A stretch of DNA of 13,985 nucleotides from Bacteroides sp. (GTDB lineage Bacteria; Bacteroidota; Bacteroidia; Bacteroidales; Bacteroidaceae). A program made the position numbers and the translations under genes. Of the stretch, positions 2,735 through 8,769 are shown in pieces. Each line of letters begins with the position of its first letter. Within the stretch, counting starts at the first letter, position 1. Under the pieces are notes generated by a model. It had not been told where the DNA came from and did no database searches. It worked only from the letters and a program-made list of their open reading frames with translations. The DNA lies in the NCBI GenBank assembly GCA_017556595.1, contig JAFYML010000116.1, positions 1 to 13,985 of the forward strand. Reading direction: 5' to 3'.

Positions 2735-4857
2735 AAAGGCTGTTTTTTCTTCTTTTAGCCCTTTGTTGTTTATTGCCTACACATGCCGATGAGGGGATAT
2801 GGATGCTGAGCAACTTGAATAAAGCCGTGCGTCGCGACATGAAAGAGCGTGGCTTGGATATGTCGCTAAAGCAACTCTACCATCCTAAAAAGGCTTCGCT
2901 AAAGGATGCGATAGTCAGTTTTGGAGGATTTTGCTCGGGCGTAGTGGTGAGCGAAGAGGGCTTGTTGCTGACCAACCACCATTGTGGCTTCAGTAGCGTT
3001 CAGCAACACTCGTCACCGCAACACGACTACCTGCAAGATGGTTTTGTGGCGCAAACGAAAGCGGAAGAGTTGCCTTGCCCCGAACTCTATGCACGCTTCT
3101 TGATTGAACAGACAGATGTGACCGATAGGGTGTTGTCGCCCGTCACCTCTGCAATGGATGAGGCTACAAGAAGTGCCGTTATCGACTCTATGCTCTACCT
3201 TATCGAGGAAGAGATTTATCAAAAAGATACAACGCTGATTGCTATAGTCGATACCTATTATGGAGGTACCGAGTTTTGGCTATCTACCTATCGCGACTAT
3301 AACGATGTACGGTTGGTGTATGCACCCCCTACATCGGTGGGAAAATTCGGATGGGACACCGACAATTGGATGTGGCCTCGCCATACGGGCGATTTCTGCG
3401 TGTTCCGTATCTATGCCGATGCCAACAATTGTCCGGCCGATTACTCTCCCGACAATCGTCCCTACCATCCACGCTATGTAGCACCCATTTCATTGAACGG
3501 CTATGCAGAAGGCGACTTCTGTATGACCATTGGTTATCCCGGTAGCACCGAGCGATACCTCTCTTCCTTTGGCATTGAAGAGATGATGCTGACGCAAAAT
3601 CAAGCGCAGATTGATGTACGGGGCGTGAAGCAAGCTATTTGGGAGCAAGCCATGGAAGCAAGTGATAGCATTCGCATAAAGTATGCTTCCAAATACGACC
3701 AAAGTTCCAATTATTGGAAGAATAGCATTGGCATGAATCGTTCCATTAAAAAACTGAAAATAGTAGAGAAAAAACAAGCGGCCGAACAAGAACTTCTTCG
3801 ATGGATTCGACAAAATCGTACCGAGGATGAATCTTCGTTGCTTCATCTGCTCACCGATTTGGAGTTGAACTACGAAGCACGCCGTGATGCCTATCGAGCG
3901 CAAGCCTATTTTGTGGAATCGTTCTTCAATGCGGCAGAGTTGTTCCCATTGGCGTTGAACACTTTGAATTTGGATATCGAGGGAAATTCAGAGCTATTGG
4001 AAAATGCGGTTGAAAGCTTGGAAGAGATTTACGAAGATTTTGATGCCGCGATAGACAAAGAGGTTTTCGTGGCTATGTTGGAAGGCTATCGTGAGCACGT
4101 TTCTCCTGAATACCTACCGGCTTTCTACTATACAATCGAAGTAGAGCATGGCGGCAATATGCAGGCTTTTGCCGACTCTATTTATGACCACTCCTTGCTT
4201 ACGACACCAAGGGCTCTGCATCGCTATTTGCAACGCGACACTACTTTCCACATTGCCGATGATGCCGCCGTAAATGTATGTTTCGACCTATTGGTCACAT
4301 ATATGGAATTGAATGCTTATTTGCAACAACCTTCGGAGAAGATACAACAATCCGAACGATTGTTATCCGCCACTATGCGCAGAATGTATGCTCAACGCAA
4401 CTTCTATCCCGATGCCAATTCAACGATGCGTCTTAGCTTTGGTGCGGTGCGTGGATATAATCCGGCCGACGGAGTGGCTTATGATTACTATACCACAACG
4501 CAAGGAATCTTGGAGAAAGAGCGAGCGCACAAGGGCGATAAGGATTTCTATGTGCAACCCGAATTATTGTCTTTATTGCAAGGAAACTATGGCCAATATG
4601 CCGATGAAAACGGGGAAATGCGCGTTTGTTTCATTACCGATAACGATATTACAGGCGGTAATAGCGGTAGTGCCATGTTCAATGGCAAAGGCGAATTGTT
4701 GGGATTGGCTTTCGATGGTAATTGGGAGGCCATGAGTAGCGACCTACAATACGAACCACACCTACAACGATGTATAGGTGTGGATGTACGTTATATGCTA
4801 TTTATCATTGAGCATTATGGTAATGCCAAGCATATTGTTGAAGAAATGTGTCGCTAA
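2731..4857 (+). CDS. S46 family dipeptidyl-peptidase, DPP7-like
   Basis: This is a secreted serine exopeptidase of 708 residues that removes dipeptides from peptide N-termini, probably in the periplasm, for peptide nutrition. It starts with a signal peptide (MKRLFFLLLALCCLLPTHA, cleavage probably near residue 19). The catalytic His lies in TNHHCG (H84). The DTDNWMWPRHTGDF block (about 209-222) carries the family's catalytic Asp. The nucleophile is Ser645 in GGNSGS. Eighteen residues after it is Gly663 in LAFDGNWE; DPP11 enzymes have Arg there (Arg673 in P. gingivalis), which selects acidic P1 residues. Gly points to DPP7-type, hydrophobic-leaning broad specificity. The ATG at 2731 overlaps the flippase TGA. 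An in-frame ATG at 2623 lies inside the flippase and would bury the signal peptide. The stop overlaps that of convergent ahpF. Confidence 0.93.
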   Translation: MKRLFFLLLALCCLLPTHADEGIWMLSNLNKAVRRDMKERGLDMSLKQLYHPKKASLKDAIVSFGGFCSGVVVSEEGLLLTNHHCGFSSVQQHSSPQHDYLQDGFVAQTKAEELPCPELYARFLIEQTDVTDRVLSPVTSAMDEATRSAVIDSMLYLIEEEIYQKDTTLIAIVDTYYGGTEFWLSTYRDYNDVRLVYAPPTSVGKFGWDTDNWMWPRHTGDFCVFRIYADANNCPADYSPDNRPYHPRYVAPISLNGYAEGDFCMTIGYPGSTERYLSSFGIEEMMLTQNQAQIDVRGVKQAIWEQAMEASDSIRIKYASKYDQSSNYWKNSIGMNRSIKKLKIVEKKQAAEQELLRWIRQNRTEDESSLLHLLTDLELNYEARRDAYRAQAYFVESFFNAAELFPLALNTLNLDIEGNSELLENAVESLEEIYEDFDAAIDKEVFVAMLEGYREHVSPEYLPAFYYTIEVEHGGNMQAFADSIYDHSLLTTPRALHRYLQRDTTFHIADDAAVNVCFDLLVTYMELNAYLQQPSEKIQQSERLLSATMRRMYAQRNFYPDANSTMRLSFGAVRGYNPADGVAYDYYTTTQGILEKERAHKGDKDFYVQPELLSLLQGNYGQYADENGEMRVCFITDNDITGGNSGSAMFNGKGELLGLAFDGNWEAMSSDLQYEPHLQRCIGVDVRYMLFIIEHYGNAKHIVEEMCR

Positions 4858-6416
4858 ATCACCCCTCTTGTTCTATCATCGAAGGCCGATAGCGCTGCTT
4901 TTGCACCTTCGCCCATGGCGATGATAATCTGTTTGTAGGGTACACTCGATACATCGCCTGCAGCATAAACACCCGGTAGGTTAGTGCGGCAAGCAGCATC
5001 AATTTTGATTTCTCCGATAGGGGTAGTATCCAATGCCTCACGGAAAGGTGCGCTGTTGGCTGCCAATCCAATCTGTACAAAGATGCCATCCAATGGGTGT
5101 ACCATTTCTTCGCCAGTGTTCCTGTTTTTCACTCTAATACCTGTAACCTTTTCACCATTGCCTACAACTTCTGTTGTTTGCATTGCGGTGAATACCTCTA
5201 CATTTGGAAGACCGAAAAGTTTTTTCTGCAATACTTGGTCAGCTTTTAAGTTGTCCAAGAATTCATAAACAGTTACTTTGCTACAGATACCGGCCAAATC
5301 TATGGCGGCTTCGATGCCTGAATTACCTCCACCGATAACGGCTACGTGCTTTCCTTTATAGAAAGGACCATCGCAATGTGGACAGAAGGCTACACCACGA
5401 CCGATGTATTCGTTCTCTCCCGGCACATTTAATCGGCGCCAACTGGCTCCGGTAGCTATGATAACGGCTGGTGCCGAGAAGGTTTCGCCACCACGAGTCA
5501 TGATTAGTTTGTGTGGCTCTTGCAATAAGGCACTTTCAATGCTGCGTTCCTCGAATAAATCTATGGGGTAATGATTCATGTGGCTTCGCAGGTCATTGGC
5601 CAATTGGGCACCGGTGGTTTGTGGCACAGAGATTAAATTTTCAATTCCTACGGTCTCTTTCACTTGTCCGCCAATGCGGCCGGCCACTACACCAACGTGC
5701 AATCCTTTGCGGGCAGAATAGATAGCTGCCGATGCTCCAGCTGGTCCTCCTCCAATGACTAATACATCAAATTCGCGATGAATAGGGCGATTTTCTTCGT
5801 TTGGTTCACTACCAAATCGTTCTTCCAATTTCTGTAAGAGTTCGCCTAAAGAGCCACGTCCCATGTGTAGCATCTCGCCATCGGCATATACCGCCGGTAC
5901 GGCTTGTATGTTCAATCGGTTCACTTCATCTTGGAAAAGAGCGCCATCCACCATTTCATGAGTAAGGTTTGGATTTTGTAAAGCCATGATGTTTAGTGCT
6001 TGTACAATGTCGGGGCAGTTGGTACAAGTTAAAGAAACATAGGTTTGCAAGCGGATAGTACCTTTCAACGATTTGATGCGTTGGCAAATAGTCTCATCGG
6101 GCAAGTTCTTTCCTTTACCATCGGCATTGAGCACGGCCAATAAAAGCGAAGTAAATTCATGTCCATTGGGAATGCCACGGAAGGTGATACCTGTTTCCTT
6201 GCCATTTTTCAACAGTGTGAATTCAAGACTGTTATCCTGAAAAGTTTGGTTAAATTCACATGTCAGATGGTCGGAGCAAGAAGCAAAATCGTTAAGAAAT
6301 TGGCGCATTTCTTCTGTTTCATTGCGGTTACTATCGGCAATAACTCGGAAAGTATAGTGAGCTTCGAGATTCTTGAATATTTCTCGTACTTGTTGGAGGA
6401 TGGATTGATCTAACAT
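4854..6416 (-). CDS. ahpF: alkyl hydroperoxide reductase subunit F (AhpF)
   Basis: AhpF is the cytoplasmic FAD-dependent NADH:peroxiredoxin reductase that recycles AhpC. The 520-residue protein has the full layout: an N-terminal tandem thioredoxin-fold domain with the redox pair CTNC (131-134), a linker to about 213, then a thioredoxin-reductase-like body. The body has the FAD motif IGGGPAG (221-227), the active disulfide CPHC (345-348), the nucleotide-binding IGGGNSG (361-367) and the C-terminal FAD motif AGDV (487-489). The Cys345/Cys348 positions are the same as in E. coli AhpF, and length and order are typical. It lies 86 nt downstream of ahpC, with a strong hairpin between them. Its TAG overlaps the TAA of the S46 peptidase, and no terminator is visible there. 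Confidence 0.97.
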   Translation of the reverse strand: MLDQSILQQVREIFKNLEAHYTFRVIADSNRNETEEMRQFLNDFASCSDHLTCEFNQTFQDNSLEFTLLKNGKETGITFRGIPNGHEFTSLLLAVLNADGKGKNLPDETICQRIKSLKGTIRLQTYVSLTCTNCPDIVQALNIMALQNPNLTHEMVDGALFQDEVNRLNIQAVPAVYADGEMLHMGRGSLGELLQKLEERFGSEPNEENRPIHREFDVLVIGGGPAGASAAIYSARKGLHVGVVAGRIGGQVKETVGIENLISVPQTTGAQLANDLRSHMNHYPIDLFEERSIESALLQEPHKLIMTRGGETFSAPAVIIATGASWRRLNVPGENEYIGRGVAFCPHCDGPFYKGKHVAVIGGGNSGIEAAIDLAGICSKVTVYEFLDNLKADQVLQKKLFGLPNVEVFTAMQTTEVVGNGEKVTGIRVKNRNTGEEMVHPLDGIFVQIGLAANSAPFREALDTTPIGEIKIDAACRTNLPGVYAAGDVSSVPYKQIIIAMGEGAKAALSAFDDRTRGVI

Positions 6417-6502: not shown

Positions 6503-7069
6503 TCAGATTTTGCCTACAAGGTCAATGCTTGGTTTCAATGTTTCGGCACCTTGTTTCCATTTAGCTGGGCAAACTTCGCCTGGATGGCTGGCTACGAACA
6601 AAGCAGCTTCTACCTTGCGAACCAATTCGTCGGCATTGCGACCGATGCTGTTGTCTTGGATTTCGGCAATCTTTACTTTACCTTCAGGATTTACGAGGAA
6701 TGTACCACGATAGGCCATACCATCTTCTTCGATCATCACGCCAAAGCCGCGGCTGATGACGCCTGTTGGGTCGGCCAACATAGGATAGTTGATTTTGCGG
6801 ATGCTTTCTGATGCATCGTGCCATGCTTTGTGTACAAAGTGAGAGTCGGTACTTACTGAATATACCTCTACACCTAAACTTTGCAACTTTTCGTATTTCT
6901 CTGCGAGGTCAACCAATTCGGTAGGACATACGAAAGTAAAGTCTGCTGGATAGAAGAAGAAGATGGCCCACTTGCCTTTTACGTCTTCGCTTGAAACTGT
7001 CTTGAAAGCTCCGTTGTGATACGCTTGAACTTTGAACTCGGGCATTTGTGCATTGATAATCGGTGTCAT
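6503..7069 (-). CDS. ahpC: alkyl hydroperoxide reductase subunit C (peroxiredoxin AhpC)
   Basis: AhpC is a typical 2-Cys peroxiredoxin that reduces H2O2, organic peroxides and peroxynitrite, and is recycled by AhpF. From the ATG at 7069 it has 188 residues (E. coli AhpC has 187). The peroxidatic Cys48 lies in the PxxxTxxC motif FYPADFTFVCP and the resolving Cys166 in HPGEVCPAKWK. The protein ends with SIDLVGKI, as in enterobacterial AhpC. The GGLG and C-terminal YF motifs of overoxidation-sensitive peroxiredoxins are absent, which predicts a robust enzyme. A second ATG two codons upstream (7075) is equally open; I prefer 7069 by family length. A -7 box and a paired OxyR-like site lie upstream. 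Confidence 0.97.
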   Translation of the reverse strand: MTPIINAQMPEFKVQAYHNGAFKTVSSEDVKGKWAIFFFYPADFTFVCPTELVDLAEKYEKLQSLGVEVYSVSTDSHFVHKAWHDASESIRKINYPMLADPTGVISRGFGVMIEEDGMAYRGTFLVNPEGKVKIAEIQDNSIGRNADELVRKVEAALFVASHPGEVCPAKWKQGAETLKPSIDLVGKI

Positions 7070-7156
7070 AATCATTTTGTTTTAAAGGGTTATTACTTAA
7101 TTTATTTCTATATTTTCTTAATTCATTTCGGGAGTGTTTCCCTTGTTTTGACATTG

Positions 7157-7188
7157 CAAAAATATAGCAGAAATTCCGATTAAAACAA
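7157..7188 (-). promoter_or_regulatory. ahpC promoter
   Basis: On the minus strand, TATTTTTG (7164-7157) matches TAnnTTTG, and a TTG at 7188-7186 lies 21 nt upstream, in the -33 place. The predicted leader is about 80 nt. The OxyR-like site (7232-7197) is just upstream of the -33 element, an activating position. Confidence 0.6.
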
Positions 7189-7196
7189 TAATTTCG

Positions 7197-7232
7197 ATTG
7201 AAAGGTTTTATGGCCCGATAGAGTTTATCTAT
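7197..7232 (-). promoter_or_regulatory. putative OxyR operator of ahpC
   Basis: The distal dyad is a perfect ATAG-N7-CTAT (7218-7232), overlapping the oxyR stop codon. Six bases away is a degraded dyad (7197-7211; ATTG-N7-TTAT on the plus strand, 6 of 8 matches). The two centres are 21 bp apart. The known E. coli OxyR site is a four-element array of the same words with N7 between dyads. OxyR binding here is inferred from the motif and the neighbouring oxyR gene. Confidence 0.6.
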
Positions 7233-8158
7233 AATGCTGCTTGTGATACCCTGAGTTTAATCATTTCGCGTGGAACGGAATTTTGTATCTCTTTTATAAT
7301 TGTATTTAATAAGGTGTGGCGAATGTAGTTTTTGTTGGTCATCATAATGAGTTGTCGGGTAGGGATGGGTACGGCAAAGGGGCGTACCAATCTTTTTTGT
7401 GTTTCGCTCATTTGCATTACGGCCAATTCGGGAATAAACGTAACGCCACGGCCACTTTCCACCATGCGCATAAATGTTTCCATGCTTCCCAATCGGTAGG
7501 TTAATTGACTATTCTGTGCCGGCTTCAGTTGGCAGAAGCGCACTAATTGGTCGCGGAAGCAATGGCCTTCGTCAAGCAACCATAGCTGATTGCTTGTTGC
7601 TAAGTCGGTAGTGCGTATTTTTTCGTTTTCGTAAAGCGGATCTTCTTCGGCAACGTAGGCATAATATTGTTCGTAGAAGAGGTGGTTCACGGTGTATTCT
7701 TCAAAATCGGGCATGTTGGCCAAGATACCGCCATCTATTTCGCCGGTAAGTAGGGCCTGCTTAATTTCGAAGGTCTTCATTTCGCTGACACGAATATCCA
7801 ATTTGGGGAATTTCTTTTCCAGGGCGGGAAAGAATCTTGGTAGCAAATAGGGAGCAATGGTGGGGAGAATACCCAATCGGAATATACCGCTTACTTCCTG
7901 ACGTGCCTCTTCGATGAGGCTTTTTATGCGGTCGGCTTGATTCAGCACTTCGCGGGCTTGTTCAATGACTTGTTGACCAATGGGCGTAATACCAATGGGT
8001 TGACGATTGCGTTCGAATATCTTCGTACCCAATTCTTCTTCCAGTTTTTGAATCATTGCGCTCAACGTGGGTTGTGTCACGTTGCATTGCTCAGCCGCTT
8101 TGCCAAAATGGCGTTGTTGTGCCAAAGCCAAGATGTATTCCAATTGTTGCAGAGTCAT
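7229..8158 (-). CDS. oxyR: peroxide-sensing LysR-family regulator OxyR
   Basis: OxyR is a cytoplasmic transcription factor activated by H2O2 through an intramolecular disulfide. The 309-residue protein has the LysR N-terminal winged helix (about 1-60, with FGKAAEQCNVTQPTLSAMIQKLEEELG) and a substrate-binding-like sensor domain (about 90-300). The diagnostic stretch LLDEGHCFRDQLVRFC holds Cys200 and Cys209, with the nine-residue spacing of E. coli Cys199/Cys208 and the same GHC-RDQ context, so redox sensing is very likely. It lies between its presumed targets: ahpC 160 nt downstream in the same direction, dps divergent upstream. An OxyR-like site covers its own -7 box, suggesting autorepression. 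No terminator is seen between oxyR and ahpC. Confidence 0.96.
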   Translation of the reverse strand: MTLQQLEYILALAQQRHFGKAAEQCNVTQPTLSAMIQKLEEELGTKIFERNRQPIGITPIGQQVIEQAREVLNQADRIKSLIEEARQEVSGIFRLGILPTIAPYLLPRFFPALEKKFPKLDIRVSEMKTFEIKQALLTGEIDGGILANMPDFEEYTVNHLFYEQYYAYVAEEDPLYENEKIRTTDLATSNQLWLLDEGHCFRDQLVRFCQLKPAQNSQLTYRLGSMETFMRMVESGRGVTFIPELAVMQMSETQKRLVRPFAVPIPTRQLIMMTNKNYIRHTLLNTIIKEIQNSVPREMIKLRVSQAAL

Positions 8159-8170
8159 ACGAATAGGTTT

Positions 8171-8206
8171 ATAGATTTTGTCTATGCAAAGATAGAAATT
8201 ATCTGT
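8171..8206. promoter_or_regulatory. putative OxyR operator shared by oxyR and dps
   Basis: ATAG-N7-CTAT (8171-8185, perfect) is followed after 6 bp by ATAG-N7-CTGT (8192-8206, 7 of 8 matches), with centres 21 bp apart. This closely follows the E. coli OxyR consensus of four ATAG/CTAT words in major grooves on one face of the helix. The site covers the oxyR -7 box (8194-8187) and abuts the dps -33 region. It could therefore repress oxyR and activate dps. Binding is inferred. Confidence 0.7.
8187..8194 (-). promoter_or_regulatory. oxyR promoter -7 box (TATCTTTG)
   Basis: A perfect TAnnTTTG box on the minus strand, 28 nt before the oxyR ATG. No clear -33 TTTG is seen. The box lies wholly inside the paired OxyR-like site, so bound OxyR would block it. 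Confidence 0.6.
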
Positions 8207-8236
8207 TGGAAACCATTCATTTGCCCCATATCTTTG
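8206..8236 (+). promoter_or_regulatory. dps promoter
   Basis: TATCTTTG (8229-8236) is a perfect -7 box, with TTG at 8206-8208 lying 20 nt upstream in the -33 place. Transcription would start near 8243, leaving a leader of about 38 nt that is A-rich (8241-8280). The OxyR-like site ends at the -33 element. Confidence 0.65.
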
Positions 8237-8280
8237 CTGCAGAAAAAGAAAAAATATTAACCCTTTAAATAGATTGAATC

Positions 8281-8769
8281 ATGAAGACATTAAATTTTTT
8301 GAATTTGAACGAGAACAGCGTAGCTAACGTAGTAGCAGCATTGAATCCTTTGTTGGCCGATTTCCAAGTATTCTACACCAACCTTCGTGGTTTCCATTGG
8401 GAAATTAAAGGACGCGGATTCTTTATCCTACATAGCAAGTTTGAAGAACTTTATGACGATGTAGCTGCTAAAGTGGATGAACTGGCAGAACGCATTCTTA
8501 TGTTGGGTGGTACTCCGGAAAGCAAATATAGTGAATACTTGAAACAAGCGCGTATAAAAGAGGTTTCGGGTGTGAGTTGTGGTCATGAAGCTATTGAGAA
8601 TATCCTCGATACTTACAAGCACTTTATTGCCGAAGAACGTAAATTGATTGATGTGGCCAACGAAGCTAATGATGTAGTTACAGCAGATATGTTGACCGGT
8701 TACTTGAAAGAGCAAGAGAAACTGGTGTGGATGCTGACTGCTTTCAATACCAAAAGTTGCGAGAAATAG
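8281..8769 (+). CDS. dps: Dps-family DNA-binding/ferritin-like protein
   Basis: Dps forms a 12-subunit shell that oxidises and stores Fe2+ using H2O2, limiting Fenton damage, and may bind DNA. The 162-residue protein has the ferroxidase pattern in GFHWEIKG, LHSKFEELYDD and VDELAERI. His39, His51, Asp66 and Glu70 align with E. coli His51, His63, Asp78 and Glu82, with the same spacing. Length is typical. The N-terminus (MKTLNFLNLNENS) lacks a lysine-rich tail, so DNA binding is not assured. It is divergent from oxyR, has its own promoter next to an OxyR-like site, and ends with a strong terminator, so it forms a single-gene unit. Confidence 0.95.
   Translation: MKTLNFLNLNENSVANVVAALNPLLADFQVFYTNLRGFHWEIKGRGFFILHSKFEELYDDVAAKVDELAERILMLGGTPESKYSEYLKQARIKEVSGVSCGHEAIENILDTYKHFIAEERKLIDVANEANDVVTADMLTGYLKEQEKLVWMLTAFNTKSCEK

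Follow-up and report, generated by a model that had tools for sequence, protein, structure and literature searches.

Introduction

In Escherichia coli, the OxyR consensus is ATAG-N7-CTAT-N7-ATAG-N7-CTAT, with a centre of 7 bp (PMC5720770; PMC10580950). ATAG-N7-CTAT is the known OxyR word pair (PMC5720770), and T-N11-A repeats of this sort are bound by LysR proteins (PMC5002191). At E. coli oxyS, OxyR uses repeats whose centres lie at -66 and -44, and a third repeat at -35; whether oxidised or reduced, the protein represses oxyR (PMC5002191). In its reduced form OxyR acts as a repressor in many bacteria, and the Bacteroides protein appears in a published list among the activators (PMC8115020).

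Among the Bacteroidia, B. fragilis OxyR controls katB, ahpCF, tpx and dps (PMC6158253), and a P. intermedia oxyR mutant shows a fall of 378-fold in ahpC, 153-fold in ahpF and 18.3-fold in dps (PMC7999485). In B. thetaiotaomicron, oxyR faces away from dps (PMC10434189). The Bacteroides OxyR regulon is already known; so far as the literature searched shows, which was represented in part and did not cover key B. fragilis papers, no operator has been described for Bacteroides OxyR.

Genes of the window and the OxyR protein

The window, which is the whole stretch of 13,985 nucleotides of Bacteroides sp. DNA analysed (assembly GCA_017556595.1, contig JAFYML010000116.1), carries oxyR on the minus strand (7229-8158), encoding a LysR-type regulator, and dps on the plus strand (8281-8769), encoding a Dps-family ferritin-like protein. 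Also on the minus strand are ahpC (6503-7075) and ahpF (4854-6416), encoding alkyl hydroperoxide reductase subunits C and F, which score above the cut-offs of TIGR03137 and TIGR03140, respectively. The regulator consists of PF00126 (LysR HTH) and PF03466 (LysR substrate domain), and its best solved relative is P. gingivalis OxyR (PDB 3ho7, E 3e-66). It contains cysteines at positions 25, 200 and 209, the last two aligning with the E. coli redox pair Cys199 and Cys208. The original prediction placed an OxyR-type site between a Cys200/Cys209 OxyR and dps, and both neighbours are as described there.

The NCBIfam model for E. coli-type OxyR, NF008361, gives 218 bits against a cut-off of 329 and the NCBIfam Dps model gives 68 against 114, so the names OxyR and Dps rest on other evidence. 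Identity to E. coli OxyR is 29/60 in the HTH, 7/28 in the linker and 65/217 in the sensor domain and rest (part boundaries set by the authors), making the HTH the region most like E. coli OxyR, with QPTLS common to both. Peroxide sensing and DNA binding by this protein are predicted.

The operator between oxyR and dps

Two ATAG-N7-CTAT-type repeats lie at 8171-8185 and 8192-8206 on the plus strand, separated by a centre of 6 bp, with the repeat centres 21 bp apart. The 36 bases at 8171-8206 read ATAG ATTTTGT CTAT GCAAAG ATAG AAATTAT CTGT, matching 15 of the 16 letters of the four-word E. coli-type pattern (one mismatch), which are the letters given in the original prediction. The four words ATAG/CTAT are thus arranged in two N7 repeats, and the centre is 6 bp in place of the E. 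coli-type 7 bp.

At up to three mismatches the 16-letter pattern occurs at two places in the window, 8171-8206 (one mismatch) and 7197-7232 (two mismatches), where 200 shuffles give 0.03 places per window on average. Neither the single mismatch of the oxyR-dps intergene nor the two mismatches of the ahpC-oxyR stretch was reached in any of 2000 dinucleotide shuffles, with centres of 4-9 bp allowed. The second place, which the original prediction did not include, is an operator on the minus strand reading ATAG-N7-CTAT-N6-ATAA-N7-CAAT toward ahpC and overlapping the 3' end of oxyR. In the organism's own assembly (1.72 Mb, 70.62% complete), 8171-8206 is the sole place with one mismatch; at up to three mismatches there are 19 places against 10 for the reversed pattern, so that noise makes up much of the three-mismatch tail. 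One of these places, with two mismatches, lies at position 1152 of contig 212. The site at 8171-8206 is a conserved operator, and OxyR is its most likely reader.

Conservation and the 6-bp centre

A single protein scan found 284 relatives, of which 80 named oxyR loci were kept, giving 81 loci with the window added. Divergent dps lies within 700 bp of oxyR in 37 of them, window included (the dps set), and 36 of the 37 have the site at up to three mismatches, always with a centre of 6, while L035 has four mismatches; the loci are related and the counts are therefore not independent. A lack of conservation of the motif in orthologous oxyR-dps intergenes had been set beforehand as a refuting outcome, and the prediction withstood this test. 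Over the 36 loci, word 1 is ATAG in 29, word 2 is CTAT in 35 and word 3 is ATAG in all, and at word 4, on the dps side, CTGT occurs in 22 loci and CAGT in 14. The CTGT that had been counted as a mismatch to the E. coli word is therefore an instance of the rule, as CTGT or CAGT stands there in 36/36 loci. In the 23 loci that are less than 80% identical, information content is 1.52 bits in the operator columns, 0.27 in the outer flank and 1.36 in the dps -7 region, and 22 or 23 of the 23 have an A directly after ATAG and a T directly before CTAT.

Spacing was examined with the extended pattern at up to three mismatches across 22 named genomes, with the reversed pattern as control. A centre of 6 yields 57 places against 16 reversed. 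Centres of 7 (19 against 25) and 5 (12 against 15) show no excess over the reversed patterns in these genomes and were rejected, the centre-7 list being partly tandem repeat, with 4 of its 19 places on contig 17 of one genome (G304). When the pattern is fitted to E. coli K-12 upstream regions, oxyR (two mismatches) and grxA (three) fit best with a centre of 7, katG fits weakly (five mismatches, equalled with a centre of 10), and dps and ahpC have at least six mismatches at any centre. The view that nearly the enterobacterial recognition words were kept therefore holds for the four words but not for their spacing, the centre being 6 and not E. coli's 7 in all 36 dps sites and all 45 ahpC sites.

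Promoters and operator-promoter geometry

Bacteroidetes primary-sigma promoters have a -33 TTG about 20 bp upstream of the -7 box. Both elements are predicted for dps: a TTG at 8206-8208 (plus strand), overlapping the last operator base and 20 bp before the -7 box, and the -7 box itself, TATCTTTG at 8229-8236 (plus strand), 22 bp past the operator and of the form TAnnTTTG. The published -7 consensus is TANNTTTGY (PMC12632263). In the dps set, a TTG is found at the operator edge or adjoining it. The predicted -7 box of oxyR, TATCTTTG at 8187-8194 on the minus strand, lies inside the operator centre, where 34 of the 36 dps-set loci with the site retain ATCTTTG; inspection by eye gave no clear -33 box for the oxyR promoter. 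The predicted ahpC -7 box, TATTTTTG at 7157-7164 (minus strand), is 32 bp past the ahpC operator.

The window thus holds two registers, 22 for dps and 32 for ahpC, and the same two recur in the 22 genomes. In 32 of 56 places the TAnnTTTG box begins 22-23 bp beyond the operator, and in 15 it begins 32-34 bp beyond (47/56 in total), the counts being 20 at 22 bp, 12 at 23, six at 32, four at 33, five at 34, one at 12 and two at 36, with none from 24 to 31. None of the control places falls at 22-23 or 32-34 bp, neither with a centre of 7 (0/18, the distinct places among 19) nor with a centre of 5 (0/12). In this set every dps, katA and sod place counted is in the near register, ahpC places are divided into ten far and four near, and rubrerythrin places into five far and one near. 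Of the 36 sites of the dps set, 35 have the box at 22-23 bp, and the ahpC sites of the 81-locus set have it at 32-33 bp in 41 of 45, at 22 in three and not at all in one. For nine of the 56 sites no -7 box was found when 60 bp to each side were searched (L137, L140, L161, L155 and L177-L181); the first three of these lie inside long frames.

Since the two registers differ by about one helical turn, a dependence on the face of the helix may be supposed. Of the proposal that the core promoters differ completely from the enterobacterial ones, the difference in promoter type stands, with the qualification that operator and Bacteroidetes -7 box keep fixed distances from each other.

Target genes

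A motif search upstream of dps and ahpC orthologues had been suggested together with the original prediction, and it gives sites within 300 bp of 34 of the 39 dps genes and 45 of the 49 ahpC genes examined, all with a centre of 6 (81 loci, plain 16 letters). The ahpC genes of L095, L100, L101 and L106 have no site in their own 300 bp. Among the 57 places in the 22 genomes, one has an unreadable flank and 46 of the other 56 have defence genes downstream. These are dps (15, of which 11 are shared with oxyR), ahpC (14, three shared), rubrerythrin (six, one shared), sod (six, four shared), katA (three), a peroxiredoxin and a thioredoxin, with labels taken from Pfam for ten proteins, from BLAST to the window proteins, and otherwise from reading of the translations. 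One further place lies before a small protein read as DUF2892-like, next to a second LysR gene.

In the organism's own genome, a degenerate pattern finds four best places at zero or one mismatch (reversed control 0) and three further places at two mismatches. The four are those of dps/oxyR, ahpC, desulfoferrodoxin and rubredoxin. The operator before desulfoferrodoxin, a superoxide reductase, is on contig 149 (L128, 3198-3233), 66 bp from the gene, and that before rubredoxin is on contig 121 (L129, 2932-2967), about 80 bp from the gene, each with a -7 box 22 bp on.

The operator and its divergent partner

Divergent dps is absent from 44 loci, nine of which have divergent sod, rubrerythrin or ahpC (frames read from listing). 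The site is found upstream of oxyR in eight of these nine, the ninth (L106) having four mismatches. Where there is no divergent defence gene at all, the site stands upstream of oxyR in 1 of 35 loci, four of which have less than 700 bp upstream; the one, L090, has the operator and a dps-type promoter, and neither a long frame nor a dps frame was found there.

The closest relatives of the window locus, L027, L028 and L029 (OxyR 93, 91 and 89% identical), lack dps beside oxyR and have an intact ahpC operator. In L027 and L028, oxyR directly adjoins the gene that in the window lies beyond dps, and the words have decayed to ATTG, CTAT, ATAA and TTAC with the oxyR -7 box kept. These two loci represent a natural deletion, in which the oxyR -7 box was left and the outer words were lost.

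Retention of the operator seems to be tied to the divergent defence gene and not to oxyR, because the operator occurs in 1/35 loci without such a gene and because its words decay where dps is lost. That 1/35 gives no support to the idea that the site exists to autoregulate oxyR. The damping of oxyR, predicted because its -7 box lies in the centre of the operator, seems to be a by-product.

A separate observation concerns Mediterranea massiliensis (L133, 1097-2084), where a second LysR gene, whose product is 35% identical to the window OxyR, and a small protein that is DUF2892-like by its translation have one such operator in common. This second LysR is possibly a sister sensor.

Reach across the Bacteroidia

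Class-wide, at up to two mismatches, 28 of 395 genomes have a site (43 places against 18 reversed), and 24 of the 395 have an OxyR at E 1e-75 or better. Seven loci were chosen by eye from the 28 genomes, and six have the site beside oxyR; its divergent partner, named from translations, is a catalase in L245 and L246, a KatG-like catalase in L267 and L270, and a peroxiredoxin in L250 and L255. The seventh, L258, has the site before a catalase alone (also named from its translation). The exact TAnnTTTG is absent from the first 80 bases in five of these seven loci. At more distant OxyR loci, a centre-6 site at up to three mismatches is found in 4 of 12 readable ones (of 18). In G583 (L247, contig 67, 47557-47676), an array of tandem 21-bp units matches the operator pattern five times at two mismatches, and these matches overlap.

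The sod promoter of P. gingivalis is bound by P. gingivalis OxyR in EMSA and ChIP (PMC2430334). The exact published primer located it in one genome among the 26 of the genus, and it does not contain the pattern, having at best seven mismatches at a centre of 6 and six at any centre; a genome in which the primer matches with one mismatch likewise has no site, with six mismatches at best. As published support for the pattern this promoter fails, the paired words being absent. At up to three mismatches, 18 of the 26 Porphyromonas genomes have places (35 against 6 reversed), and among the five places read a peroxiredoxin lies downstream in L231, L235 and L241, and no clear defence gene in L232 and L234. 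In L241 and L231, the operator stands between the peroxiredoxin and a repeat-rich, secreted-looking protein, with oxyR absent there and a -7 box 22 bp on.

Given 4/12 distant loci, 28/395 genomes and a P. gingivalis sod promoter without a site, the rule is not class-wide; it holds for the Bacteroides- and Prevotella-like loci of the protein scan and for scattered lineages besides.

Proposed mechanism and alternative explanations

The best explanation, to which we assign a probability of roughly 0.8, is that 8171-8206 is a conserved operator, most likely that of OxyR, placed at a fixed distance from the dps promoter, through which OxyR would activate dps and cover the oxyR -7 box. The words, their 6-bp centre and conservation, the genes downstream of them and the favoured -7 distances are observed; from sequence we infer binding by the window OxyR, its tetramer state, activation, autorepression and the transcription starts. 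OxyR oxidised at Cys200/Cys209 would occupy each 15-bp repeat as a dimer, the two dimers being 21 bp, or two helical turns, apart. Its downstream edge would then lie against the dps -33 box, from where RNA polymerase would be recruited to the -7 box 22 bp on, and the same occupancy would cover the oxyR -7 box in the operator centre and damp oxyR. At 7197-7232, OxyR would act likewise for ahpCF, one helical turn further off. Provided that dps starts near 8242, the geometry of activation would be kept despite a pitch of 21 bp as against 22 bp. The losses in the P. intermedia mutant and the OxyR control in B. fragilis, both other organisms, fit activation of dps and ahpCF.

That the words are read by another oxygen-response regulator, such as a second LysR, PerR or a MarR-type protein, with OxyR a mere neighbour, is unlikely. 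It would account for the site beside the different LysR gene of L133 and for the P. gingivalis sod promoter, which OxyR binds without the words. In B. thetaiotaomicron, PerR has been linked to rubrerythrin and, within an expanded network, to hydroperoxide reductases (PMC12596196), which also speaks for such a reader. Against it, the PerR box appears unlike the OxyR words; ATAG-N7-CTAT is OxyR's known word pair (PMC5720770) and its T-N11-A repeats are of the kind that LysR proteins bind (PMC5002191), while the sites adjoin oxyR and precede genes whose expression is lost in oxyR mutants.

A reading in which OxyR is chiefly a repressor, its reduced form blocking dps and oxyR until oxidation frees them, draws on an operator in contact with the -33 box predicted for dps and lying over the -7 box predicted for oxyR, and on the repressive reduced OxyR of many bacteria (PMC8115020). 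It is improbable, as the site precedes the promoter of its target at two distances that are related by the helical turn, the Bacteroides protein is counted among the activators (PMC8115020), and loss of oxyR lowers ahpCF and dps expression in P. intermedia (PMC7999485). Least credible, to the point of being scarcely tenable, is that the words are chance or a by-product of overlapping promoter boxes, with no operator. The oxyR -7 box TATCTTTG does contribute letters to words 2 and 3 where oxyR and dps diverge, but words and 6-bp centre are kept without a TATCTTTG centre at ahpC, katA, sod, rubrerythrin and other sites, so the promoter-overlap artefact is rejected; the -7 box stays and the words decay in L027 and L028, where dps is missing, and the shuffles gave 0/2000.

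Beyond this locus, activation by OxyR from a conserved operator may extend to a general description, which we hold to be reasonably probable. Bacteroidia OxyR would read a re-pitched ATAGA-N5-TCTAT, twice, two helical turns apart and with no third sliding repeat, locked to the promoter at 22-23 or 32-34 bp. The operator would be kept together with a defence gene that faces oxyR across it and varies by lineage (dps, sod, ahpC, rubrerythrin, catalase, KatG or peroxiredoxin), in a broad oxygen-defence regulon including superoxide reductase, rubredoxin and rubrerythrin. If true, the oxygen-defence regulon of these anaerobes would be legible from sequence; a motif with preferred promoter distances would make the regulon of gut and oral anaerobes predictable. 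It would also provide a clean test case of a LysR activator coping with a one-base change in pitch and with a promoter without -10/-35 boxes, and suggests that anaerobes place superoxide reductase, rubredoxin and rubrerythrin under a peroxide sensor.

Comparison with known OxyR systems

The operator resembles that of E. coli OxyR (oxyR-oxyS, grxA, katG) in its four words, its two 15-bp inverted repeats and its place between oxyR and a divergent target, and its repeats would lie at about -64 and -43 from a dps start near 8242, compared with -66 and -44 at E. coli oxyS. Unlike in E. coli, the centre is 6 bp and not 7, with repeat centres 21 and not 22 bp apart, the A/T beside the words is near-fixed where E. 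coli has ATAGnt, the promoter is of the Bacteroidetes -33/-7 type, and the dps-side word is CTGT or CAGT. A third repeat, which at E. coli oxyR-oxyS is reported 31 bp from the first, is found at an offset of 30 or 31, at up to three mismatches, in 0 of 23 loci, which sets the site apart from the E. coli type, and for this reason E. coli's alternative site seems to be missing here.

With regard to the closer systems, P. gingivalis OxyR is the best solved relative, yet its sod promoter is without the paired words, and tpx, named as OxyR-controlled in B. fragilis, is not among the targets assigned to sites. The likeness to the OxyR regulon of B. fragilis and P. intermedia (katB, ahpCF, dps) lies in the sites before katA, ahpC and dps, beyond which sites also stand here before rubrerythrin, sod and thioredoxin and, in the organism's own genome, before desulfoferrodoxin and rubredoxin.
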